From Deltaproteobacteria bacterium (GTDB lineage: Bacteria; Myxococcota_A; UBA796; UBA2385): DNA of 64,000 bases. The notes under the pieces were generated by a model. It ran no database searches. It was not told the origin of the DNA and saw nothing but the letters and a program-made list of their open reading frames with translations. A program made the translations under genes and the position numbers. Shown in pieces: positions 514 through 64,000 of the stretch. Position 1 is the stretch's first letter. Each line of letters starts with the position of its first letter. The stretch covers positions 1-64,000 of the forward strand of contig JAGYJW010000009.1 of the NCBI GenBank assembly GCA_018401435.1, read 5' to 3'.

Positions 514-1923
514 TCAGCCCGGCTTGCTGCCGGTCGGCGTCGCGCTGGGGTGCCGCTCCACGATGTCGCGCGACAAGAAGCCTGCCATCTCCCGCAGATT
601 CAGCGGCGCGCCGCGTTCCACCATGACCCGCGCAAAGAGCGGCTGGGCCTCGGAGTAGCGGCCCCTCCGCCGGAGCAGATCGGCGAGCACGAAGGTCACG
701 CGCACCTTCTCGTCCATGGCCAGGCTGGGCTGGGCCAGCGCGCTGCGGTAGGCGGCGATCGCCTCGTCTTGCAGGGCGGGTTCGACCACCTGGGCCGCCT
801 GCTTGAAGGTGGCCAGGACCTCGGCCTCTTTGGGGCTGAGATCCCCCACCGCGGCAAAGGCGGCCAGCAGCTGATCGCGCTCTTCGGACCAGCCACCCCG
901 GTGGGCCACCCGGGCGAGGTTGTGCAGCAGGATCTTGCGCTGGTGGGGATCGAGGTTCTTGGCCAGCTCTGTCTGGCCCTGGTCCAGCATCAGCCGGGCG
1001 GCGATGGGGCCGGAGAGCCCCTCGAAGATGCCCACGGCGCGGTCCCGGGCGGTCCAGCTGGCGCGGTGCAACAGGTCCCCGATGAAGACCGGGTCCCGGC
1101 CCAACACGCGGTACATCTCGGCGGCGATGCGGTAGCGGTCCCAGACCTCGATGCGCTCAACCGGAGGAAAGGACGGGCGGATCTCGTCCAGCCGGGCGCT
1201 CAGCCGGCCCTTGATCTCGGCGTCCAGTGGAAGGCGCTCCATGTCGGCGCCATAGAGGCTGAACAGGCTGTCGGTGCAGGTTGAAACCGCATACTCGCGA
1301 TACTGGCCCTCTGAGGAGTAGGCGGCCAGATCGCTGTCGAAGCCGCCATGGGTGTCCGAGGACAGGCGCTCGTAGATGCGCACGGTGCCAGGGCTGGCCA
1401 ATGCCGCGAGGCTGTCGGCGGCTTCGAAGTCCTCGGCCGCACCCACCGAGATTTCGACCCCCAGATCGTCGGCGGCCAGGGCAGCTTGCAGGCAGAAGGC
1501 GTCGAGCTGGGCGCCATCCATCCAGCCGCCCTGAAAGCGCAGCTCGGCGTCGCGAAGCTGGCCCACGGTGGCCGCCCGCGTGGGGTGGAAGACCACCGAG
1601 ACCGCCCATCGCCCGCCGCCGACCACCGCGCGCTCCAAGTCGCGTTCGATGGCCACGATGCGCCCGGCGACCTGCCAGCGGGCCGCGGATGCGGGCACAC
1701 CACCGGGCTCTGCGATGAGGGTGGCCCCCCGCTGGCGCCCCAGCATGGGGTTGCCCCAGCCCCGGGGCACCAGGAGCAGCAAGGCGCCGGGCGTGGGCTC
1801 GGCGAGGACCAGGCGGTCGCCGGCCCGAAGCACGAAGGCGCCCACATGTCCCCACTGGGTGACACGGGCGCTGGTGGCGGATTCTTGGCGGATGCGGGGG
1901 ACCTGGACGGCGAGGGCGGGCAT
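514..1923 (-). CDS. DUF2225-like conserved hypothetical protein
   Basis: A 469-residue protein. The ATG at 1923 is preferred over an upstream in-frame start because AGGAGG lies just before it. Residues about 195-240 contain a D-x-D-L-x-x-Y...Y-x-V-x-x-C pattern like the zinc-binding region of DUF2225 proteins, but with fewer cysteines. The C-terminal half (from about residue 265) is helical and TPR-like, with W-D-R-Y-R-I-A-A-E-M-Y and A-I-A-A-Y-R-S-A-L segments, again as in DUF2225. No signal peptide or membrane segment is seen, so it is probably cytoplasmic. Function is unknown; the family assignment is by eye and is an inference. It is divergent from the antiporter gene at 2219. Confidence 0.7.
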   Translation of the reverse strand: MPALAVQVPRIRQESATSARVTQWGHVGAFVLRAGDRLVLAEPTPGALLLLVPRGWGNPMLGRQRGATLIAEPGGVPASAARWQVAGRIVAIERDLERAVVGGGRWAVSVVFHPTRAATVGQLRDAELRFQGGWMDGAQLDAFCLQAALAADDLGVEISVGAAEDFEAADSLAALASPGTVRIYERLSSDTHGGFDSDLAAYSSEGQYREYAVSTCTDSLFSLYGADMERLPLDAEIKGRLSARLDEIRPSFPPVERIEVWDRYRIAAEMYRVLGRDPVFIGDLLHRASWTARDRAVGIFEGLSGPIAARLMLDQGQTELAKNLDPHQRKILLHNLARVAHRGGWSEERDQLLAAFAAVGDLSPKEAEVLATFKQAAQVVEPALQDEAIAAYRSALAQPSLAMDEKVRVTFVLADLLRRRGRYSEAQPLFARVMVERGAPLNLREMAGFLSRDIVERHPSATPTGSKPG

Positions 1924-1973
1924 CGGTGGCCTCCTGAACGGGTATCCAGAGGATATCGCAACCTCTCGCCAAT

Positions 1974-2011
1974 GGTCGGACAAAAAACGTCCCCCTTAAG
2001 CCTGTCCGATC
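1974..2011. promoter_or_regulatory. inverted repeat in divergent promoter region
   Basis: GGTCGGACA (1974-1982) and TGTCCGATC (2003-2011) form a 9-bp inverted repeat with one mismatch and a 20-base spacer. It sits in the 295-bp gap between the divergent DUF2225-like and antiporter genes. A second small palindrome, TATCC-AGA-GGATA, lies close to the DUF2225-like start. Either could be an operator; no regulator can be named. Confidence 0.25.
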
Positions 2012-2218
2012 GGGAATCTCCTCCCCCATCCAGGGGTCTGCAGCCTGCGCGGTGCGAGGGGGCGACCCTCCGGTGGCCTCGACGCTCATGCCCTTGAGCG
2101 TGGCCGTCCCCTCGCCCCGCACCCCCCCCACAGCAGGCCCCACATTTCGCTTGCAGCACGGGCCCCCTGAGCCGAAGGAGGCATGTGCTAATCTCCGGGC
2201 GGCTTGAGGGGTCAGAAG

Positions 2219-3610
2219 ATGTCGAATGTGTTGCTGCTGCTGCTTGTCGCGGGCTCTCGGTCGGCGCTGGCCTCCGGAGGCGGCGAGCATGCGCTGGAGA
2301 TCTCGCCCCTGTGGGTGATCCCCTTCGCGGGCATGCTGTTGTCCATCGCGGTCTTCCCGATGGTCGCGCACCACTGGTGGGAGCAGCACCGCAACCAGCT
2401 GTTGGTGGCCTTGGGCTGGGCGACGCCCATCCTGGGCTACTTCGGCTACCTGATCGTCTCGGGCGATCCCGGCCATGTGGCCTCGCACGGCCTGAGCCAC
2501 GCCATCGAGGAGTATATCTCCTTCATCGCGCTGCTCGGCTCGCTCTTCATCATCTCGGGCGGCATCCTGCTGAAGGGCGACCTGGAAGGAAAGCCGGCGA
2601 TCAACACCAGCTTTCTGGCCGTGGGCGCCGTGATCGCCAATGTGATCGGCACCACTGGCGCGTCGATGCTGCTCATCCGGCCGATGCTGCGAACCAATAG
2701 CCAGCGGGAATATGTCAAGCACATCCCGCTCTTCTTCATCTTCCTGGTGTCCAATATCGGCGGCGCGCTGACGCCCATCGGCGACCCGCCCCTCTTCCTT
2801 GGCTACCTGCGCGGCGTGCCCTTCTTCTGGACCCTGGAGCACCTCTGGCACATCTGGCTGGTGCCGGTGATCGTGCTGCTGGTGATGTTCTATGCGGTGG
2901 ACGCCTACTTCTATCGGAAGGAGGACAAGGCGCACCGGGCCGAGGACGAGTCCGAACGCCAGCCGCTGGGCGTGAGTGGCGCCTGGAATTTCGCCCTGCT
3001 GGGCGGGGTGGTGGCAGCGGTGCTGCTGCTGTCGCCGGTGCAGGGCGTGCACGACTTCCGCAACTACTATGCGCGCGAGATCGCCATGGCCGCCCTGGCC
3101 GGCCTCTCGATCTGGAAGACCGACAAGAGCATCCGGAAGGCCAATGGCTTCACCTATGGGCCCATCCTGGAGGTGGCGGCGCTCTTCTGCGGCATCTTCA
3201 TCACCATGATCCCGGCCACCCTGCTGCTGCAAGAGCACGGCTCCGCCCTGGGCCTGTCCGAGGCCTGGCAGTACTTCTGGGCCACGGGCGTGCTGTCGAG
3301 CTTCTTGGACAACGCGCCGACCTACGTCACCTTCGCGGCGCTGGCCTGTGGCAGCATCGCCGAGTGCACCACCCCCGAGAATTTGCAGCCGCTGACCGAA
3401 GGTGCCGGTGCACCCCTGATGATCGCCATCTCCTGCGGCGCGGTCTTCATGGGCGCCAACAGCTATATCGGCAATGGCCCCAACTTCATGGTTCGCGCCA
3501 TCGCCGAAGAGAATGGCTACAAGATGCCCAGCTTCTTTGGCTATGTCGGCTGGGCCGCGGTGGTGCTGCTGCCGGTCTTCTTGCTGGTCACCTTCCTCTT
3601 CCTGCTCTGA
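2219..3610 (+). CDS. nhaD: NhaD-type Na+/H+ antiporter
   Basis: A 463-residue inner-membrane protein of the ion transporter superfamily that includes citrate transporters. At least ten hydrophobic segments are visible. Diagnostic blocks are G-T-T-G-A-S-M-L-L-I-R-P near residue 145, then SNIGGALTPIGDPPLFLGYL and GVPFFWT around 180-210, and SSFLDNAPTY near 360. These match NhaD/UIT6 antiporters that expel Na+ or Li+ in exchange for protons. The ATG at 2219 is chosen because AGGGG precedes it at a normal distance; an in-frame TTG at 2204 is less likely. It is followed after 7 bases by a possible small gene. Length and motifs look intact, in contrast to many neighbours. Confidence 0.9.
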   Translation: MSNVLLLLLVAGSRSALASGGGEHALEISPLWVIPFAGMLLSIAVFPMVAHHWWEQHRNQLLVALGWATPILGYFGYLIVSGDPGHVASHGLSHAIEEYISFIALLGSLFIISGGILLKGDLEGKPAINTSFLAVGAVIANVIGTTGASMLLIRPMLRTNSQREYVKHIPLFFIFLVSNIGGALTPIGDPPLFLGYLRGVPFFWTLEHLWHIWLVPVIVLLVMFYAVDAYFYRKEDKAHRAEDESERQPLGVSGAWNFALLGGVVAAVLLLSPVQGVHDFRNYYAREIAMAALAGLSIWKTDKSIRKANGFTYGPILEVAALFCGIFITMIPATLLLQEHGSALGLSEAWQYFWATGVLSSFLDNAPTYVTFAALACGSIAECTTPENLQPLTEGAGAPLMIAISCGAVFMGANSYIGNGPNFMVRAIAEENGYKMPSFFGYVGWAAVVLLPVFLLVTFLFLL

Positions 3611-3617
3611 CGGCTGC

Positions 3618-4028
3618 GTGCGCCCGCCGGCAGCCCTGGGGTGGTCCGTCGCCGGCCTGGCCTCTCTGGCGCTGTGCTGGGTCAATGGGCGCAGCCCGCC
3701 CTCCCACGCGGACATCCCGCCCCCGCCCCCTGCCCTGCCCCGCCCGACCTCCGAGGCCGACTGGCAGCGGCTTCAGGAGCAGGCCGCAGCCATGAACCAG
3801 GCCCTGTCGGGACGGGCCTCGCTGCCCTTGGAAGCCCTGGAGGGGGCCCTGCCCGGCGGCCTGCCCGACAACCCACTGGTGGAGGGCATCTCCACCTTGG
3901 CAGAGGCCTGCGCCGACACGCCGGGGCCCCGGCCGGTGGCCGACTGGCTCTATTGCTCCAAGACCGGCCAGCTACAGCCCGGCCAGGAGCCGGGCGCAGA
4001 CCCGACTACCAGCCGTCCGCCCCATTGA
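3618..4028 (+). CDS. small secreted hypothetical protein
   Basis: A 136-residue reading frame starting with GTG 7 bases after the antiporter stop. The first 25 residues have a hydrophobic core (GLASLALC) that could be a signal or lipoprotein signal, although Leu just before the Cys is unusual. A proline-rich stretch follows, then a helical region (EADWQRLQEQAAAMNQAL) and a C-terminal VADWLYC segment. No family is recognised. The 3' end overlaps the convergent lipoprotein gene by 23 bases. Codon use fits neighbours, so it is probably real; the start is uncertain. Confidence 0.5.
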   Translation: MRPPAALGWSVAGLASLALCWVNGRSPPSHADIPPPPPALPRPTSEADWQRLQEQAAAMNQALSGRASLPLEALEGALPGGLPDNPLVEGISTLAEACADTPGPRPVADWLYCSKTGQLQPGQEPGADPTTSRPPH

Positions 4029-4716
4029 AGGCATAGACCGGCTCGATTCGCCAGCTGCCGTCCGGCAGCGGCGCCTCGGTGGGGGTGCCGCCCTCTCCGA
4101 GGTAGGCGCCGCTGAGCCCAGCCGCCCCGAAGACATAGACCGGGCCGCCCGTCTCGAGGCGCGCATAGGCGCCGCTGAGGCTGAGGTCGCTGCCGGCCGC
4201 AGCACCGGGCACCCGCTCCAGCACCGCCAGGATCTCGGGGTGCAGGCTGCCGACGCCCAGCTGGATGACCTCCAGGGGCACCGCCTCTCCGGCGTCCACG
4301 CAGTCTCCGGACCAGTCGCCCACGATCAGCTGCCACCAGGCCAGGATCTCGGGCTCGGGCGGGCTGAGGGTGGTGACCCGCTCGACCGGCGCGGCGGCGG
4401 TGCAGCGCACCACGGCGTTGGCGTCCAGGCTCACCACCTGCAAGGAGGAGCCCGAGGGGCTGGCCCGGCCCTCCACCACCTCGCTCGGGTGGCCGCAAGG
4501 CGCCACCACACGGCAGGCTCCAGGCCGGCCCCGCTGTCGGCGGCGTCGTCGGCCCCGGGCGCCATCGCCGCCGCCATCGGCCAGGCCGCTGTCGCCACCC
4601 TCGAAGCCGTTGGTGGGGCTCTGCTCGGCCCCAGCCAGCCCCGCTTCGCTGCAGCCGCTCGCGGCTGCGAGCGCGCCGAGGGCGGATGCCCACCGGGCAG
4701 CCCTGGATCCACGCAT
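4006..4716 (-). CDS. putative lipoprotein of unknown function
   Basis: A 236-residue protein with a lipoprotein signal ending A-A-S-G-C (Cys22) and a GAGGAG ribosome site before the ATG. A Gly/Asp-rich linker leads into a folded C-terminal region with Trp-rich (ILAWWQLIVGDW) and Gly-rich segments. Residues about 52-65 are an improbable arginine run (RGRRRRRQRGR); the same bases read in another frame give an ordinary acidic linker (GADDAADSGAG), so two compensating indels may lie here. It precedes a second lipoprotein gene oriented the same way. No family is recognised. Confidence 0.6.
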   Translation of the reverse strand: MRGSRAARWASALGALAAASGCSEAGLAGAEQSPTNGFEGGDSGLADGGGDGARGRRRRRQRGRPGACRVVAPCGHPSEVVEGRASPSGSSLQVVSLDANAVVRCTAAAPVERVTTLSPPEPEILAWWQLIVGDWSGDCVDAGEAVPLEVIQLGVGSLHPEILAVLERVPGAAAGSDLSLSGAYARLETGGPVYVFGAAGLSGAYLGEGGTPTEAPLPDGSWRIEPVYAFNGADGW

Positions 4717-56094: not shown

Positions 56095-56238
56095 GGGTCG
56101 AGTCCTGGGCCGGTATGCGCCTGTAGCCGGTCCAATGGGGCGAGGGTAGGCACAGGCGCTGCACCTGCCGATGGCCGCGCCCCCCGCCCGGCCGCGCCGG
56201 CACGGGCGCGAGCCCCCCGACCACCGGAGCGCAGCGAA

Positions 56239-57381
56239 ATGGCGAGCTTTCTCCTCGATCCTGGGGTCATCTTCCTCAACCACGGGTCCTTTGGGGCCAC
56301 CCCGGTGGAGATCCTCGCAGTGCAGCAGGACCTGCGCGAGCGCATGGAGCGCGAGCCGGTGGACTTCCTGGTGCGGCAGCTTCCCGGCCTGCTCGCAGCC
56401 GCGCGGGAGCGTGCGGCGCGCTTCGTGGGGGCGCGCCCCCAAGACCTGGTCTTCGTGCCCAACGCCACCGCGGGGGTCGGGGCCGTGCTGCGATCCCTGG
56501 CCCTGCGCCCCGGGGACGAGCTGCTGACCACGAACCATCGCTATAACGCCGTCTTTCAGGCCATGCGCCGAGAGGCCGGGCGGGCGGGCGCCCGGGTGCT
56601 GGAGGCCCGCATCCCCTGGCCGGTGCAGGATCCCGCCGCCCTCAGCCAAGCGGTGCTCGCGGGCATCGGGCCGCGCACCCGCCTGCTGGTGGTGGACCAG
56701 ATCACCTCGCCCACCGGGCTGATCCTGCCCGTCGAAGACATCGTGGCGGGAGCCAGGGCCCGCGGCGTCGCGGTGCTGGTGGACGGCGCCCACGCCCCCG
56801 GACAGGTGGACCTGGACCTGGCCCGCCTGGGCGCCGACTGGTGGGTGGGCAACCTGCACAAGTGGGTCTGCGCCCCCAAAGGGGCCGCGCTGCTGTGGAC
56901 TGCGCCGGAGCACCAGGGCCAGGCCCGGCCCCCGGTCACCTCCCATGGCGCGGATCTCGGCTACCACCCCGAATTCGACTGGCCCGGCACCTTCGACCCC
57001 ACCGCCTGGCTGGCGGCCCCAGCCGCCATGGATCTGCACGAGGCCGAAGGCGGTCCGGCCTTGCGCGCGGCCCACCACGCGCTGGTGCAAGCCGGGCGCC
57101 TGCTGCTGAGCGAGGCGCTGGCGCGCCCGCTGCCCCACCCCGACGACCCCCGCCTCTATGGGTCCATGGCCGCCATCTCGGTGGGCTTGCCGGCGTCGCA
57201 GGCCCTGGCCCTGCACACGGCCTTGTGGACCCAACACCGGATCGAGGTGCCAGTCAGCCCCTTCGAAGATGAAGCCGTGCTGCGGATCTCCGGCTTTGCG
57301 CTCTACAACCGCCCAGAAGACTATGAGGCCCTGGCCGCGGTCCTTCCCGGCTGCGTGGCCGCCTTGCAGGTCAGGGGTTGA
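56239..57381 (+). CDS. class-V aminotransferase, isopenicillin-N epimerase-like
   Basis: A 380-residue PLP enzyme starting MASFLLDPGVIFLNHGSFGA. The active-site region NLHKWVCAPKGAALLW contains the PLP Lys, and VAVLVDGAHAPGQVDLDL the cofactor-binding Asp/His. The NHGSFG start and the HKW context match the isopenicillin-N epimerase/ cysteine desulfurase-like subgroup often seen in ergothioneine-type or amino-acid racemisation pathways. No partner gene points to a specific substrate. Its last 11 bases overlap the convergent receiver gene. Confidence 0.9.
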   Translation: MASFLLDPGVIFLNHGSFGATPVEILAVQQDLRERMEREPVDFLVRQLPGLLAAARERAARFVGARPQDLVFVPNATAGVGAVLRSLALRPGDELLTTNHRYNAVFQAMRREAGRAGARVLEARIPWPVQDPAALSQAVLAGIGPRTRLLVVDQITSPTGLILPVEDIVAGARARGVAVLVDGAHAPGQVDLDLARLGADWWVGNLHKWVCAPKGAALLWTAPEHQGQARPPVTSHGADLGYHPEFDWPGTFDPTAWLAAPAAMDLHEAEGGPALRAAHHALVQAGRLLLSEALARPLPHPDDPRLYGSMAAISVGLPASQALALHTALWTQHRIEVPVSPFEDEAVLRISGFALYNRPEDYEALAAVLPGCVAALQVRG

Positions 57382-57841
57382 AGGGGGGGACGCTGACCAG
57401 CGCGGCCTCCAACATCTCGCGAATGCGCGCCGGGCCGGCCGAGTCGTCCAGCCAGGACAAGGGGCCGTAGCGCCGCTCCAGGTTGGCGAAGCGGCGGGGC
57501 TCGCTGCCGAAATCATAGCTGATCAGGACAGGCAGGGCGCAGCCCGCCTCGCGCAGGGCGGCGAGGATGTAGGCGCCCTGGTTGTCTTCGAGGAAGCGCC
57601 GGGCCCGGGCCCCATCCCCCAGGCGGGCCACCAGGGCCGTGGCGTCCCCCAACAGGCGCGCGGCCCGGTCAAAGCGCATATCGAGCACGACGGCGGCAAT
57701 CTCGGGCTCCTGGGCCAGCAGGCACAGCGCGTCCTCGCCGTCACCGGCACGCAGAAAGCGGAAGCGGTCCCCCAGGAAGCGGCGGTAGGCCTCGACATAC
57801 TCGTGCCCATCCTCGACAATGAGGACCAGCGGCGCGTTCAT
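57371..57841 (-). CDS. atypical stand-alone receiver (lysine-less)
   Basis: A 156-residue receiver with acid pair E10-D11 (LIVEDGHEYV) and phospho-acceptor D54 (VVLDMRFDRA). The Ser/Thr position is S108 (VLISYD), 54 residues on instead of about 30, because of an insertion (residues about 60-85) before QGAYILAALREAG. Where the invariant Lys should be, 23 residues later, there is W-L-D-D (L131). The same two changes occur in the receiver of the AAA+ activator in this operon. Without Lys, phosphorylation-driven switching should be altered. It overlaps the kinase stop as ATGA. Confidence 0.8.
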   Translation of the reverse strand: MNAPLVLIVEDGHEYVEAYRRFLGDRFRFLRAGDGEDALCLLAQEPEIAAVVLDMRFDRAARLLGDATALVARLGDGARARRFLEDNQGAYILAALREAGCALPVLISYDFGSEPRRFANLERRYGPLSWLDDSAGPARIREMLEAALVSVPPFNP

Positions 57842-60635
57842 GAGAACTCCTGCGCGGGTGGATCCGCCTCGTCCGGGTCCAGCTCGACCTGGACGGAGGT
57901 GGGCAGGCGGGGGACCGGGCCGGCCACCTCGGCGCGGCGCAAGCGCACCACGATGGCCTTGGTCCAGCCCGCCGCGAGCTCGGCCGGCCGGCGCTCCACG
58001 CCGATGCTGCCATCGTGCCGGGCGATGAGATCGGCGGTCAGGCCCAGGCCCCGGCCGATGCCGCGGGTGTGGATGTCGGCGGTCTCCAGGCGCCCGGGCG
58101 CATCGTCGAGGACCCGCAGCAGCACCGACTCCTGCCCGGTGATGGGGTCCTCCTCCTCCTCGATGCACACCCCGACCCGCCCGCTGCCATCGCCCCGGGC
58201 GCAGGCCGCCGTCACCGCGTTGCGCAACAGGTTGGCCAGCACATCTTCCAGGTCCCCGGCGAAAATGCGCGCTGGAAGTGTGTCCTCGCGGCCAGACATC
58301 GCGAGTTCACAGGGGGAGAGGCGGCTGATATTGGCCTCTGCCCGCACCCGCGCCCAGGTGCCGAGCACCAGCTCCGGCCCCACCGCGGTGGTGCCCAGGC
58401 GCCCCAGCAGCTCGCCCAGCCCGGCGTAGGCGTCCTCGTTGAGGGCCTGGGCGATGGCACGCAGCCGGCCAGGCGTCGCAGCGGGCGCCCGCCAGGGACG
58501 CCGCAGGGGGCCTTCCAGGCGGCGGAGCCGATCCATGGCCCGCGCCATCGGCGCCACCACGGGGTCCTTTCGGCGCAGGTCCAGGCGCCGACCATGGCGC
58601 CGGCCCAGCCGCTCCAAGGCGTCGAGGTAGCCGTCAAAGCGGCCGATGACCCCCGCCTCCACCCCATCCCCGTAGAGGCGCTCCGCCGCGAAGGCCACCG
58701 CGTGGTGCTCCCCGCGCTCCAGGGCCAGGGCCACCTCCTCCAACAAGGTGGTGTTGTGCTTGATGACCTCGTGGCGCAGCGCGCTCACGATTCGCGCGAG
58801 ATCGTGGGATGCCTCGGGATTCTCGGCCACAAAGGCCTCCAGGCTGCGTCCCGCCCGCCGCCGGAGCAGCACCAGGGCCAGGGCGCCCAGGACCAGGCCG
58901 ATGCCCCCCAGGCCCGCACCCTGGGCGAGCTGGATGCGCCGGGTGACCACGCGCTGCAGCTGCCGGGCCGGCTCCTGGTCGAGGCCGCCGGCGCTGGTGG
59001 CGAAGTAGGCGTCCAGCCGCTCCCGCGCCAGGAGCAGGTCGTGGGCCTCAAAAGCCAGGGAGGCCAGCCGAAACCAGGCCTCGGCCACCCCGCCGGCTGC
59101 GGCCTGCTCCAAGAAGGCGACCGCGCGGCCCTGATCGCCCTCGCGCAGGGCCACCTCGGCCAGGGCCAGGCGCACCCGCGGCTGGTTGGGCTCGGCCGCC
59201 AGGGAGCGCTCCCAGGCCGACACCGCCGCTGCCCAGTCTTCGTCCCGGGCGGCGATGCCCGCCTGCAGGTTCATCGCCGCGGCCCAGCCCGGCGCCAGCT
59301 TGAGCACCGGCAGCAGCTCGGCCCGGGCCCGGGTCACCTCGCCGCGGTCCAGGTAGACCCGGGCCACCCGGTAGCCGTCCAGGGCCGCCTGGGGCACGTC
59401 GGCGGGGGGGCTGGACAGCTCGGGTAATGGGACGAAGTCTGGCGGAGATCGCCGCAGATCGGCGATTCGTTCCAGGGCGGCCCCCGCCATCGGGCCCCCG
59501 GGGTCCAGCCGGGCGCACTCTTGAAAGAGGGGCAGGGCGACGTCAAAGGCGCCCAGCTCCTGCTGCACGCGACCCAGGTGAAAGAGCAGCTCGGGCTGCG
59601 CGGGGCGCAAGGCCCGGGCCCGCGACAGGGCGTCCAGGGCCTCGGCGTGGCGCCGGCCGCCATAGCGCTGGGAGAGCAGCAGCCCCAGGCGCAGGTGCCA
59701 CTCGGGGTCGTCGGGCTCCAAGGCGCTGGCCCAGCCATAGGCCTGCTCCGCTTCGGCGATCTGGCCCAAGGCGGCGTAGACCTCGCCCAGGGCCGCCCGG
59801 GCCGCAGCCGAGCGCGGGTGCCGGCGCACCAGCTCGCGCAGGGCCTCCAGCGCGGCCTGTGGATCGGCGCTGGCGCCGCGGCGGGCCGCTCCAGCTCGGC
59901 GACGGCCTCGGGGGCCAGGGGCTGCCGCCCCCGACCGCCGGCTGCGGGCGGCCCGCTCCACGCCCACCCGCTCCAGGCGGCCGCGGGCCTCCTCTGCCCC
60001 TCCCCTTCCGGCGCCCGGAGCCAGGTAGCCCTGTAGCAGGGCCACGCCGTCCTCCTCGCGGCCGGCCTGCCGCAAGGCCGCCGCCAGGGCCATCACCAAG
60101 GGGGCGTCGGGCGGGCCATTCTCCATGCCGGACCAGTGGGCCAGGGCGGCCAGGGCGGCGTCCAGCTCTCGGGTGCGGGTGCGGCAGCGGGCCAGCCCCA
60201 GCCAGGCGCGGGTGCTACCCGGGTCCAGGCGGCTGAGGCGGGTGTAGAGGTCGGCGCCGCGCCTGGATCGGCCTCGGAGACCAGGCGGGCCAACGCCTCC
60301 ACCGCCTCGGGCTCCGCAGGGAGGCGCTGGTAGGCCGCGATGGCCCCCGCGCTGTCCCCGCGGGCCTCCCGCACCCGCCCCAGGCCCAGGTGCCCAGGCA
60401 CAAAGGCAGGCTCGTGCTGCACAACCAGGGCCCAGGCGGCCTCGGCCCGGCGCAGCGCGCCCTCGGCCTCGGCCTGCCGGGCCAGCGCGACCTGCTGGCC
60501 CACCGCCGGGCTGATGGCGTCCAACAGCCCGGTCTCGACCCGTTCGGGCGCCTGGGCGCGCGCGGGCGCCCCCCCGGTGACCAGGCCCAAGCACAAGCCG
60601 ACGCCCAGGGCGCCTCCTGGCAGCCCCCGCCTCAA
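57838..60635 (-). CDS. exported TPR-sensor histidine kinase, frameshifted
   Basis: The start is TTG at 60635, in a TTGA overlap with the activator stop. A signal peptide (LPGGALGVGLCLGLVTGGAP) precedes a TPR sensor of about 550 residues, one membrane helix (GLGGIGLVLGALALVLL), then a kinase core: ALRHEVIKHNTTLLEEVA as the likely phospho-His helix, DLEDVLANLLRNAVTAACAR (N box), VLDDAPGRLE, and RGIGRGLGLTADLIARHDGS (G2 box). The frame shifts near 60255 and perhaps twice near 59880-59960. About 932 residues are implied. A TPR periplasmic sensor suggests that it reads a protein or peptide signal. Confidence 0.8.
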
Positions 60636-62281
60636 TCCAGCAGCAGCCGCAGGTGGGTCGCCCGCAGGCCCAGCGCGTTGAAGCGGTTGCGCACCCGAAT
60701 GGCACCCTCGGGATCGGCCAGCAGCAGCTCGGCCATCGCCGCGAAATCCCCCTCGGTGCGAAAGAAGAGCTCCTCGTAGACCTGGCGCTCGATGTCCTGG
60801 CTGAGCAGGCGCGTATCGGAGGCTGGCTGCACGAGAATACGCGTCCAGAACCCATCTTCAGTCATGAAGTCGGGGGTCGGATCCACCTCGGCCGGGGCGG
60901 TGGCGGCCAGCAGATCCCGCAGGAGCTTGGGCCGCACCTGCAGCAGATCCGCCCGTGCGGCCGGCCCGCCCATCCCCGGCAGGCGCCCGGCCTCCAGGGC
61001 CTCGGCCAAGGTGAGGGTGGCGGCGTTTTCGATGGTCATGGCCAGCTCCCGCAGGTTGCCGGGCCAGGGGTGCTCCACCAGCAATTCAACGCTGCGGGGG
61101 GGCAGCAGCAGCACCTGCCGGCCGGGCCGCTCGTCGGGCAGCTGCTCGCCCAGGGCCGCTGCCAGGCAGCCCGCAGGGTCCGGCGCGTCCAGGCCCTGGC
61201 GCCGGCGGTATTCGGCGACCAGCTCCACCAGGTGGGCCTCCCGTCCCAGGCGATCCACGACAAAACGCACCAGGGGCGCGATGTCGTCCCGCCGCTCCCG
61301 CAAGGAGGGCAAGGCCACCGCGGCGGCCGGATTCAGGCGCATGTAGAGGTCGGCGCGGAAGCGCTCCTCGCGCACCCGGGCGCCCAGATCCTCGTGGGTG
61401 GCCACCACCAGCTTCACATCCACCGGGATCTCGCGGGTGTCGCCCAGGCGCGTGACCACCCGCTCCTGCAGCACCGCGAGCAGCATGCGCTGCACATCCT
61501 CGCCCAGGTTGCCGATCTCATCCAGAAAGAGCGTGCCGCCATCCGCCTCTTCAAAGGCACCTTTCCGGTCGGTGACCGAGCCTGTGTAGGCCCCCCGCAC
61601 CGCGCCAAAGAGCTGGGCCGCCACCAGGTCCTTGGGCACCGTGCTCAGGTCCACCGATACGAAGCGCCCCTTGCGGCCGCTGCGGGCGTGCACGAAGTGC
61701 CGGGCGATCAAGGACTTGCCGGTGCCCGTGGGGCCCCCCAACAGCACAGGCAGCCGCCCACGGGCCAGCACGCCCAGCCGCTGCCGGATGCGCCGCATGG
61801 GCAGGCCGCGCCCCCAATAGATCGGGCCGTCCTGGTCGCGGCCTCGCCGGGCTTGCAGGATGCCCTCGACCTGGGCGCGCAGCGATCGGGCGTCCAGCTC
61901 CTCGTCGTCCAGGAAGTAGGTATATTCTTCGGCCCGGTGCTCCTCGGCCATGCGGTCCAGGCGCTCGCCGCGGGCGGTCATCAGCACCACGGGCAGGTCC
62001 GGCCAGCGCCGGCGCAGGGCCCCCAGGATCTCGGCCCCCTGGCGCCGCTGGGCGTCGCGCAGGGTGCGGGGGTCGGCGTCGGCGGGCAGGCCCAGCAGCT
62101 GGTCGGCGGGCAGGTCGAAGTGCAGGTCGAGCAGCACGAGATCGGGGGTGGCCCCTGCGGACAACCGGCGCTCTGCGTCGGCCCAGCAGCGGTCCGGCCC
62201 CAGCCAGTCGTGCTCGGGCATCACCCGCCGGCACAGGGCCAGGGTGCGGTCCTGATCGTCAATCACCAGGATGTCAGCCAT
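60632..62281 (-). CDS. sigma-54-type AAA+ response regulator with atypical receiver
   Basis: A 549-residue protein. The receiver has D8-D9, phospho-acceptor D52 (VLLDLHFDLP), T102 (VLMTARG) 50 residues on, and F-L-D-D (L124) in place of the invariant Lys. The AAA+ domain has Walker A GPTGTGKS (183-190), Walker B GGTLFLDEIGNL (248-259) and an EHPWPGNLREL end. The sigma-54 contact loop reads GAYTGS (230-235) instead of GAFTGA. The C-terminus has a degenerate Fis-like HTH (IRVRNRFNALGLRATHLRLL). The ATG at 62281 overlaps the upstream HPt-like gene by 8 bases. It is likely the output of the phosphorelay. Confidence 0.88.
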   Translation of the reverse strand: MADILVIDDQDRTLALCRRVMPEHDWLGPDRCWADAERRLSAGATPDLVLLDLHFDLPADQLLGLPADADPRTLRDAQRRQGAEILGALRRRWPDLPVVLMTARGERLDRMAEEHRAEEYTYFLDDEELDARSLRAQVEGILQARRGRDQDGPIYWGRGLPMRRIRQRLGVLARGRLPVLLGGPTGTGKSLIARHFVHARSGRKGRFVSVDLSTVPKDLVAAQLFGAVRGAYTGSVTDRKGAFEEADGGTLFLDEIGNLGEDVQRMLLAVLQERVVTRLGDTREIPVDVKLVVATHEDLGARVREERFRADLYMRLNPAAAVALPSLRERRDDIAPLVRFVVDRLGREAHLVELVAEYRRRQGLDAPDPAGCLAAALGEQLPDERPGRQVLLLPPRSVELLVEHPWPGNLRELAMTIENAATLTLAEALEAGRLPGMGGPAARADLLQVRPKLLRDLLAATAPAEVDPTPDFMTEDGFWTRILVQPASDTRLLSQDIERQVYEELFFRTEGDFAAMAELLLADPEGAIRVRNRFNALGLRATHLRLLLD

Positions 62282-62687
62282 CCGATCCCTCCCCGGCCTG
62301 GGCCAGGGCCCGGCCATGCAGGCTGCGGGTGGCGCGGGCGATGGCCTGGGCTGCGGCGAGGGCGCGCTCCACATCGGAGGGATCGGTGGCCTGCCAGAGC
62401 TGCGAGAGAAGCCCCATCTCTGCGTCAATGAAGTCCACGTCCTCATCTCCGTCAAGCTGTGCCGGCCGCATCCGGGCCCACAGGTCCATGGCCGACTCCA
62501 CCCTCTCGCCGCTGCGTCGGGTCTGCCCCACATCCGCGATGAGGGCGGCCCGGCGCTGATCCAGGGGCGCGTCCGCAGCCAGGAAGCGCTGCTCGAAGCA
62601 GATATATTTGCCCAGATCGTGCCGGATATCGGCGAGCACCTCGACCAGGGGCGCGAGGACCGCGGGGGGCAGGGCCTCGACCCTCAC
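62274..62687 (-). CDS. HPt-like histidine phosphotransfer candidate
   Basis: A 137-residue all-helical acidic protein starting at GTG 62687, in a GTGA overlap with the upstream secreted-protein gene. The segment VLADIRHDLGKYICFEQRFL carries H23 with Lys four residues on, the arrangement of HPt domains (H-x-x-x-K). The histidine kinase has a similar R-H-E-V-I-K stretch. The rest (ERVESAMDLWARMRPAQLDG, AAAQAIARATRSLHGRALAQ) fits a four-helix bundle. No family is recognised by name; the HPt role is an inference from motif and operon position. Confidence 0.55.
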   Translation of the reverse strand: MRVEALPPAVLAPLVEVLADIRHDLGKYICFEQRFLAADAPLDQRRAALIADVGQTRRSGERVESAMDLWARMRPAQLDGDEDVDFIDAEMGLLSQLWQATDPSDVERALAAAQAIARATRSLHGRALAQAGEGSDG

Positions 62688-63139
62688 CGGCCGCCCCGAA
62701 GGAGCCCCCGCCACCGGCCCGCGCGACCCGGGGCGCGGTCGCTGGTGGGGGATCGCACTGGGACGGACTCGGGGTCCACCGCGAAGCGCCAGGTCACTCC
62801 TGCGCCTTCGCCGGTGGTGGCTTGCAGGGTCACGTGCAGGGGGCCGCCGGCCTCCCCCTGGCCCTCGACGCGCACCTGGTCGCCCCCGCGCACCGGACCC
62901 AGATCCACGCTGTCGCTGCCCCGCACGCTCAGCTCCGCGGAATTCCAGCCCCCCGCCGGAGCCAGCACCAGCAGCCAGCTCCCGTCGGGGGACCGGGTGG
63001 CCCAGACGCCCGGCAACAGGCCATTGGCCTCGGCTGCGGCCTGGTCCTTGCGATCGGCGCGCCGATCCACGCTGTCGGCATGGGCGGGGAGGGCCAGCGC
63101 AAGGGTCACGGCGATGGGGAGTGCAGCGGGCAAGCGCAT
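62684..63139 (-). CDS. secreted protein of the signalling operon
   Basis: A 151-residue protein starting at ATG 63139 behind AGGAG. The signal peptide (AALPIAVTLALALPAHADSV) has a clear A-H-A/D cleavage site. The mature part is beta-rich (GSWLLVLAPAGGWNSAELSV, LGPVRGGDQVRVEGQGEAGG) and looks like a small periplasmic domain. It is coupled to the HPt-like gene by GTGA and could be a ligand-binding accessory for the TPR sensor kinase. No family is recognised. Confidence 0.6.
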   Translation of the reverse strand: MRLPAALPIAVTLALALPAHADSVDRRADRKDQAAAEANGLLPGVWATRSPDGSWLLVLAPAGGWNSAELSVRGSDSVDLGPVRGGDQVRVEGQGEAGGPLHVTLQATTGEGAGVTWRFAVDPESVPVRSPTSDRAPGRAGRWRGLLRGGR

Positions 63140-63178
63140 CCAGGCTCCTGGGCGGTGGCCACAGGGGGACAAGGCCCC

Positions 63179-64000
63179 CTATCCCCGCTCGCGCCAGCCT
63201 CGCACCAGGGCGAGGTAGTCCACGGGACCTTCCGGCTCCGGCGGCGCCGATGGGGGCGGCCCCTCGCCCATGCGCAGCAGGGCCTCTCGGCAGGCGGCCA
63301 GCAAGGGGGCGGGTGCGACCACCGTGTCCAGGGCCTCGGCCAGGACATGGCCGCGGCGCACGATGTCCTGGGTCAGGGCGGCCATCTCCCAGGGGCCTCG
63401 ACCGCGACCCGTGGCCACCTGCGCCATCACCCGGCCCGCGGCGACCCCGTCGATATGGCCCGCGCCATGCAGCACCAGGGCGGCCTGCCACCAGGAATGG
63501 ACCGGCACGCAGCGGGGGCCGAGGGGGGCGAAGGCGTGGGGGGGACGCCGGCGCTCCAACCGGATGAAGATGCGGTCCACAGCGTCATTCTTGGGGAGCC
63601 GAGCCAGCGCATCCAAGGTGGTGTCGATGGCCTCGGGCAAGGCACCTGCGAGGTGCATCACCCGGGACACATCGTTGCTGCTGGCCCGGCCTGCCAGCGC
63701 GTCGGCGTAGAGGGAGTAGACCAGGGCGTCCACCTCGACATCATCGCCGAAGAGGGTCTCGTGGGCGGCGTCTTGCAGGCCGGCCCGCCCCAGCAGCAGC
63801 AGGGGCAGCTTGTAGCCGAATTGCTCCTTGATCGCGCGCACATTGCCCCGGCGCAGGTGGCCGAAGCTGTCCTTGAGGGTGAGGCCCTCGTGTCGAATCC
63901 CGTCCAGCCGAAGCTTCTCTTCCAGCACGGCACGAAGCTGCGTGGGCGAGCCCGACAGGATGAACACGCGGTTGTCTGGCGGCTCCGCCAGGGCCTTCAA
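63179..64000 (-). CDS. APP1/DUF2183-like phosphatase, 5' end outside window
   Basis: A 273-codon C-terminal part, still open at the right edge, so the N-terminal catalytic D-x-D-x-T lies outside. NRVFILSGSPTQLRAVLEEK and GLTLKDSFGHLRRGNVRAIK, then LPLLLLGRAG, match the HAD-type phosphatidate phosphatase APP1 (DUF2183) pattern S-G-S-P...L-x-D. An all-helical region of unknown role follows. It ends 39 bases before the secreted-protein gene and may be part of the same operon. Substrate (phosphatidate or another lipid phosphate) is not proven. Confidence 0.7.
   Translation of the reverse strand: MKALAEPPDNRVFILSGSPTQLRAVLEEKLRLDGIRHEGLTLKDSFGHLRRGNVRAIKEQFGYKLPLLLLGRAGLQDAAHETLFGDDVEVDALVYSLYADALAGRASSNDVSRVMHLAGALPEAIDTTLDALARLPKNDAVDRIFIRLERRRPPHAFAPLGPRCVPVHSWWQAALVLHGAGHIDGVAAGRVMAQVATGRGRGPWEMAALTQDIVRRGHVLAEALDTVVAPAPLLAACREALLRMGEGPPPSAPPEPEGPVDYLALVRGWRERG

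Follow-up and report, generated by a model that had tools for sequence, protein, structure and literature searches.

A gene set of Myxococcota, HDL-ACT-HK-SAR, brings together a new receiver subfamily and an unannotated family of His-bearing proteins in a phosphorelay-like arrangement. Its receivers, the stand-alone protein SAR and the N-terminal domain of the activator ACT, share an insertion and lack the Lys that receivers normally carry. Two such Lys-less receivers, an intact-looking kinase (HK), and a candidate phosphotransferase (HDL) are encoded in what is very likely one operon, a set kept across much of the phylum.

Four Overlapping Genes Encode Two Receivers, a Kinase, and a Helical Protein

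The window analyzed here, 64,000 nucleotides in length, is the first 64 kb of a 176,715-bp contig (C194) of a 7.13-Mb draft genome that is 94.9% complete. Four overlapping genes lie on its minus strand, from 62687 to 57371:

62274..62687, minus strand: HDL, unannotated helical protein of 137 aa; start likely GTG; 8-bp overlap with ACT
60632..62281, minus strand: ACT, receiver, sigma-54-type AAA+ domain, and Fis-like C terminus
57838..60635, minus strand: HK, kinase; TTG start; 4-bp overlap with the ACT stop
57371..57841, minus strand: SAR, stand-alone receiver of 156 aa; ATG start; 4-bp overlap with the HK stop

Because successive genes overlap by 8, 4, and 4 bp, they very likely form one operon. 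Re-reading of the DNA found both receiver genes at the coordinates given in an earlier sequence-only reading of the window, on the minus strand. A class-V aminotransferase-like gene (about 56200-57381, plus strand) converges on SAR, and the 3′ ends of the two overlap by 11 bp. Directly upstream of HDL, a small predicted secreted protein (MRLPAALPIAVTLALALPAHA...) is encoded at 62684-63172 (minus strand), followed by a HAD-like protein (W-D-L-D-K-T) at 63179-64000 and beyond. Many relatives also have a homologue of the latter next to the operon, in some cases on the opposite strand; at locus L154 the HAD-like gene (580-1530, minus strand) is divergent from a gene for a Ser/Thr protein kinase-like protein (1410-4241, plus strand), whose C-terminal segment resembles a formylglycine-generating domain.

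Both Receivers Carry an Insertion and Lack the Conserved Lysine

Family alignments of SAR (A1, n = 60) and ACT (A2, n = 36), with sequences drawn from across Myxococcota, gave the following features:

SAR: acidic pair E10-D11, phospho-acceptor D54, insertion at about 58-87, Tyr109, Asp132/133
ACT receiver, residues 1-153: acidic pair D8-D9, phospho-acceptor D52, insertion at about 57-80, T102, Asp125 at the Lys position

Neither the acidic pair nor the phospho-acceptor Asp varies in any of the 96 sequences of the two families. Conserved positions in SAR are E10, D11, G12, E14, Y15, D54, F57, R59, L63, G65, Q88, and G89, with the last seven invariant in 60/60 sequences, some of which share as little as 35% identity with the window protein. 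In ACT they are D8, D9, D52, F55, L62, Q81, G82, I85, L86, R90, and T102, and D52, F55, L62, Q81, G82, and T102 occur in 36/36. The sequence-only reading had thus correctly picked D54 in SAR, and D52 and T102 in ACT. Its choice of S108 as the conserved Ser/Thr of SAR was wrong: it is Y109 that falls on T102 of ACT in a gapless alignment (LPVLISY/LPVVLMT). Among the 60 SAR sequences, position 109 is mostly Tyr (38) or His (16), and position 108 is Ser (34), Ala (14), or Val (9).

The invariant Lys was absent at its site from 60/60 SAR sequences and from all 35 ACT sequences that cover it, as had been claimed from the window sequence; it was present, as K-P, in 29/29 canonical control receivers. 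The residue in its place is Asp, not Leu as first read, and the Leu is the preceding residue. D125 of ACT was placed on K104 of Spo0F by HMM alignment of the family, and again at the Lys site by a joint alignment with the 29 canonical K-P receivers. In SAR the site is ambiguous by one: D132 in the profile alignment with ACT, D133 in the joint canonical alignment (among relatives, Pro at 132 in 38/60 and Asp at 133 in 48/60). A search for a normal Lys elsewhere found none near beta-5 in ACT, and off-site Lys residues in only three distant SAR sequences; R56, R59, and R117 of SAR might be Arg stand-ins. With Y109 at the switch site and Asp132/133 at the Lys site, SAR has, as judged from the alignments, lost two of the canonical residues, Thr/Ser and Lys, and ACT is missing only the Lys. 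Both are pseudo-receivers by the published definition, since they lack the Lys (PMC12632262).

The insertion, put at roughly 20 residues in the sequence-only reading, is real. Compared with canonical receivers, about 27 residues are extra in SAR and 22 in ACT. From the phospho-acceptor Asp to the Gln of the QG motif there are 34 residues in the window SAR and 29 in the window ACT (34-40 and 25-35 across the families), compared with about 7 in 29 ordinary receivers that the genome also encodes. The motifs QGA-x-IL-x-ALR and D-(L/M)-(H/R)-F-D, noted earlier as shared, are indeed present in both proteins. Structure prediction was suggested as a check: in the AlphaFold model of SAR, the insertion forms two additional helices (67-74 and 77-86) that lie between beta-3 (48-54) and alpha-3 (88-98); in ACT it was placed by alignment only. 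Chance or sequencing error is ruled out as its origin, since 96 sequences share the insertion and the loss of the Lys. Neutral drift, with SAR and ACT acting as normal response regulators, would accord with the frequency of pseudo-receivers (about 6-13% of receivers; PMC12632262) and with the loop variation that the Rec fold tolerates (PMC9981736). We consider it highly improbable, however: L63, G65, Q88, and G89 of the insertion do not vary among the 60 SAR proteins despite their divergence, and are therefore under selection.

SAR and ACT Belong to One Receiver Subfamily

That the two domains represent a distinct receiver subfamily, as the earlier reading proposed, is supported by profile comparison, genome search, and phylogeny. 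The match between the SAR and ACT profiles extended across the entire domain and took in the insertion (hhalign probability 99.4). When the ACT profile was run against the window's own genome, which encodes more than 80 receivers, SAR was the second-best match (39 bits over positions 2-99), and other receivers reached at most 24 bits over half-domains. In an unrooted tree of 53 receivers, built with the insertion columns removed, SAR and ACT together split from 29 ordinary receivers with support of 99/97, a separation that may be exaggerated because these controls were the genome's best Pfam-scoring receivers; in the same tree, SAR and ACT each fell on one side of their own branch.

Against PF00072 (Response_reg), SAR scored 14.7 bits and ACT 18.5 bits, below the Pfam gathering score of 30.2, with weak matches in 54/60 and 36/36 relatives, respectively. 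The SAR AlphaFold model (pLDDT 95.3) has a (beta-alpha)5 receiver fold, and in Foldseek it matched ordinary receivers, those of NtrX, CpxR, and PrrA (E to 1.8e-6, target TM to 0.86). The fold of the ACT receiver was assigned by HMM alignment only. The remainder of ACT was readily recognized: it matches PF00158 (Sigma54_activat, E = 2.2e-51), with Walker A GPTGTGKS, loop GAYTGS, and a Fis-like C terminus, and this tail is conserved in relatives. The loop reads GAYTGA in 20 cases, GAYTGS in 12, and GAFTGA in 1; nine of the remaining loops were read and include GSYTGS, GAWTGS, and GAFSGA, the last in a distant clade.

Two variants of the subfamily were seen. In one clade (L103-L114), four Cys residues are found in the N-terminal receiver of ACT, spaced as C-x6-C-x2-C-x5-C (for example, TRCDLPGPCWECPARPGCTLTHAHD at L105, 5367-7607, minus strand), possibly a Zn or Fe-S site; the nearest precedent is FixT, an Fe-S receiver (PMC7078487). 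A third branch of stand-alone receivers (L156-L158, L160-L163) has the insertion in the form D-M-(R/H)-F-D...L-(Y/C)-G-D...RAEAQ...QG and also lacks the Lys. No kinase, HDL, or ACT was found in the flanks covered at 7/8 third-branch loci; at the eighth, L159, a kinase match adjoins the receiver.

The Kinase Retains Its Catalytic Motifs

HK has the following layout:

HK, N to C terminus: N-terminal signal/TM, TPR region, one TM, H-box RHEVIKHN, HATPase

In this assembly its frame is shifted between about 60258 and 60273, by a sequencing error or a real lesion; in relatives it is a single open frame. HK contains TPR repeats, with a TM segment lying 30-50 residues ahead of the H-box, and its N terminus is hydrophobic in several relatives; the TPR part is therefore probably extracytoplasmic. 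In the kinase alignment (A4, n = 45), H18, N198, R201, N202, D240, G259, and G261 are invariant (H-box, N, G1, and G2). A Pfam scan of these relatives matched HATPase_c in 30/45. None of the 45 had a HisKA-type match, and the DHp region of HK is not recognized by Pfam.

The sequence-only reading had suggested another activation mode, such as gating by a ligand or a partner. The first part of this idea fares well, as the lost Lys (and, in SAR, the lost Thr) argues against ordinary switching; nothing favors a ligand in particular. Pseudo-receivers gated by ligand or partner, perhaps with HDL as the gating partner and with an Asp that has a metal-binding or structural role instead of being phosphorylated, would fit the absence of Lys throughout and of Thr/Ser in SAR, and also the orphan third branch, in which insertion-bearing receivers have no kinase close by. 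We nevertheless hold this to be quite unlikely, given the invariance of the acidic pair and the Asp in all 96 sequences and the co-inheritance of a kinase whose catalytic motifs are intact. Since a conserved kinase and a His-bearing partner belong to the same set, phosphotransfer fits better than ligand gating.

SAR and HDL Co-occur, and HDL Stays with ACT

Among 379 Myxococcota genomes, SAR was found at high score in 98 and HDL in 96. Both occur in 90 genomes, SAR alone in 8, HDL alone in 6, and neither in 275 (p = 1.5e-69, a value that overstates the evidence because related genomes are not independent); several of the genomes with one alone are incomplete drafts. The scan of genome contigs used one sequence as the query, which detects close relatives only. 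Plasmid-borne copies of SAR were looked for and none were found. One locus, L063 (CAMAWH010000095.1), comes from a record titled as a Klebsiella pneumoniae MAG and carries the myxobacterial operon; it is probably a mislabelled bin.

The genes occur in three orders: HDL-ACT-HK-SAR, HK-SAR-HDL-ACT, and HDL-ACT-SAR-HK. Some members of one family have the set split. Even there, wherever a split locus holds both HDL and ACT, the two are adjacent (10/10 loci). HK adjoins SAR in two split loci (L082 and L149) and lies ∼3 kb from ACT in two. SAR often stands alone there, away from both HK and HDL-ACT (L072, L076, L086, L146, L147, L148, and L151).

HDL Shows Profile Similarity to the Dimerization Domain of the Kinase

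HDL, single-copy in the window's genome, contains an H23-D24 pair (RHDLGKY) that is invariant in 37/37 sequences. It is predicted with high confidence to be a bundle of four long helices: the AlphaFold model (pLDDT 96.1) has helices at 8-30, 42-54, 82-97, and 103-136, with H23 on the first. Foldseek of this model against PDB gave nothing significant (best E = 0.43), and no Hpt or DHp fold was recognized. Assignment of HDL to a known Hpt or to any Pfam, NCBIfam, or PDB family found no support, with no meaningful match. When the HDL profile was aligned with the DHp region of HK, H23 fell on the H-box His, with RHDLGKY on RHEV(L/I)KHN, at a score of 27.4. Among shuffled profiles, the 150 column shuffles reached at most 17.9 and the 150 block shuffles at most 23.9. 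The hhalign probability of this match is only 27%-43%, and the case rests on the shuffles; since all 300 shuffled controls were exceeded, there is weak-to-moderate evidence, at the level of sequence profiles, that HDL is a detached DHp-like module.

An alternative is a branched two-component system, in which HK phosphorylates both ACT, as the output, and SAR, as a phosphate sink or for feedback on the kinase, with HDL as an ACT-binding adaptor instead of a phosphotransferase. HDL does travel with ACT, SAR is without Thr and Lys, and there is a precedent in FixT, a single-domain receiver that inhibits its kinase (PMC7078487). An adaptor, however, would not need an invariant His-Asp pair that aligns on the H-box above all shuffles, and we judge the branched arrangement unlikely.

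A Proposed Phosphorelay Model

We propose instead, with confidence that is evenly balanced, that the HDL-ACT-HK-SAR operon encodes a four-protein Spo0-type phosphorelay. The membrane kinase HK, with its putative extracytoplasmic TPR domain, would autophosphorylate on the His of its RHEV(L/I)KHN box, and the phosphoryl group would pass to D54 of SAR, from there to H23 of HDL, and finally to D52 of ACT, whose AAA+ domain would then drive transcription, probably with sigma-54 holoenzyme. We infer the order HK to SAR to HDL to ACT from gene linkage, as SAR adjoins HK in the gene orders and at two split loci, and HDL adjoins ACT in all the orders and at every split locus with both genes. The shared helical insertion between beta-3 and alpha-3 may be a docking element for the His-bearing partners.

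Such a relay would make different demands on the two receivers. SAR would only have to carry phosphate; a receiver in an intermediary position has no need of a shape change, and this could have allowed SAR to lose its Thr and Lys. Published work agrees: Rec domains in such positions seem to act passively, without dependence on allosteric switching or need for a Thr-aromatic switch (PMC9981736). ACT keeps its Thr, and its switch would run without Lys. In favor of the relay, every phospho-residue it calls for is invariant (kinase H18, 45/45; SAR D54, 60/60; ACT D52, 36/36; HDL H23, 37/37); the invariant kinase motifs, the co-occurrence and linkage of the genes, and the profile similarity of HDL to the kinase also speak for it. 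Against it count the genomes in which SAR lies apart from HK and HDL-ACT, the low hhalign probability and missing Foldseek match of HDL, the pseudo-receiver status of SAR and ACT, and the normal role of Lys and Thr in holding the phosphoryl group (PMC12632262). The fuller version of this model, in which both Asp steps take place on receivers without Lys (the first also without Thr/Ser), the helical insertion is dedicated to the relay, and HDL founds a new stand-alone His phosphotransferase family derived from the kinase's dimerization domain, is more tentative, and we lean slightly toward doubting it. If such a Lys-less relay lineage does exist in Myxococcota, "pseudo-receiver" residues do not rule out phosphorylation.

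Comparison with Known Systems

No description of the four-gene set was found in the open literature, which is what our search covered. The closest parallel is the Spo0 phosphorelay of Bacillus (KinA-Spo0F-Spo0B-Spo0A), which likewise has a kinase, a stand-alone receiver, a His-bearing helical protein, and a receiver-regulator fusion; in PDB, it is also Spo0F that the ACT receiver profile matches best by sequence. Here, in contrast, the genes form one overlapping operon, and the output is an AAA+ activator. HDL lacks an ATPase-like domain and gave no detectable match to Spo0B, and SAR and ACT differ from Spo0F, which keeps K104, in the missing Lys and in the insertion.

The CckA-ChpT-CtrA/CpdR relay and the FATGUY Rec-only proteins (MrrA, SdrG, and Sma0114) offer a second parallel, with Rec-only or intermediary Rec domains that probably serve as phosphate carriers and undergo no allosteric switch (PMC9981736); among them, MrrA acts as a hub (PMC5964349). 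FATGUY receivers, however, have Thr/Ser in their motif, and SdrG also has a Lys-Pro pair. Where they read FAT-G-x-Y at beta-4, SAR reads (S/A/V)-(Y/H)-D-F, and it has no Lys and carries the insertion. ACT resembles NtrC-family sigma-54 activators (bEBPs) in its Sigma54_activat domain, Walker A motif, GAYTGA/GAYTGS loop, and Fis-like tail, but its receiver scores below the Pfam cut-off, has the insertion, and lacks Lys.

Bacterial pseudo-receivers and atypical response regulators such as FrzS, CmrT, and ChxR also miss at least one of the five catalytic residues (PMC12632262). How receivers without catalytic residues work is called a mystery in a 2025 review, in which nearly all the bacterial examples discussed are kinase-less orphans (PMC12632262). 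Unlike most characterized pseudo-receivers, which are orphans, SAR and ACT are found with an intact-looking kinase and keep the acidic pair and the Asp. The set thus offers a defined group of proteins for testing directly whether Lys and Thr are needed, and the present analysis supplies annotation for the SAR and HDL gene families, which existing libraries either overlook or leave below their cut-off.
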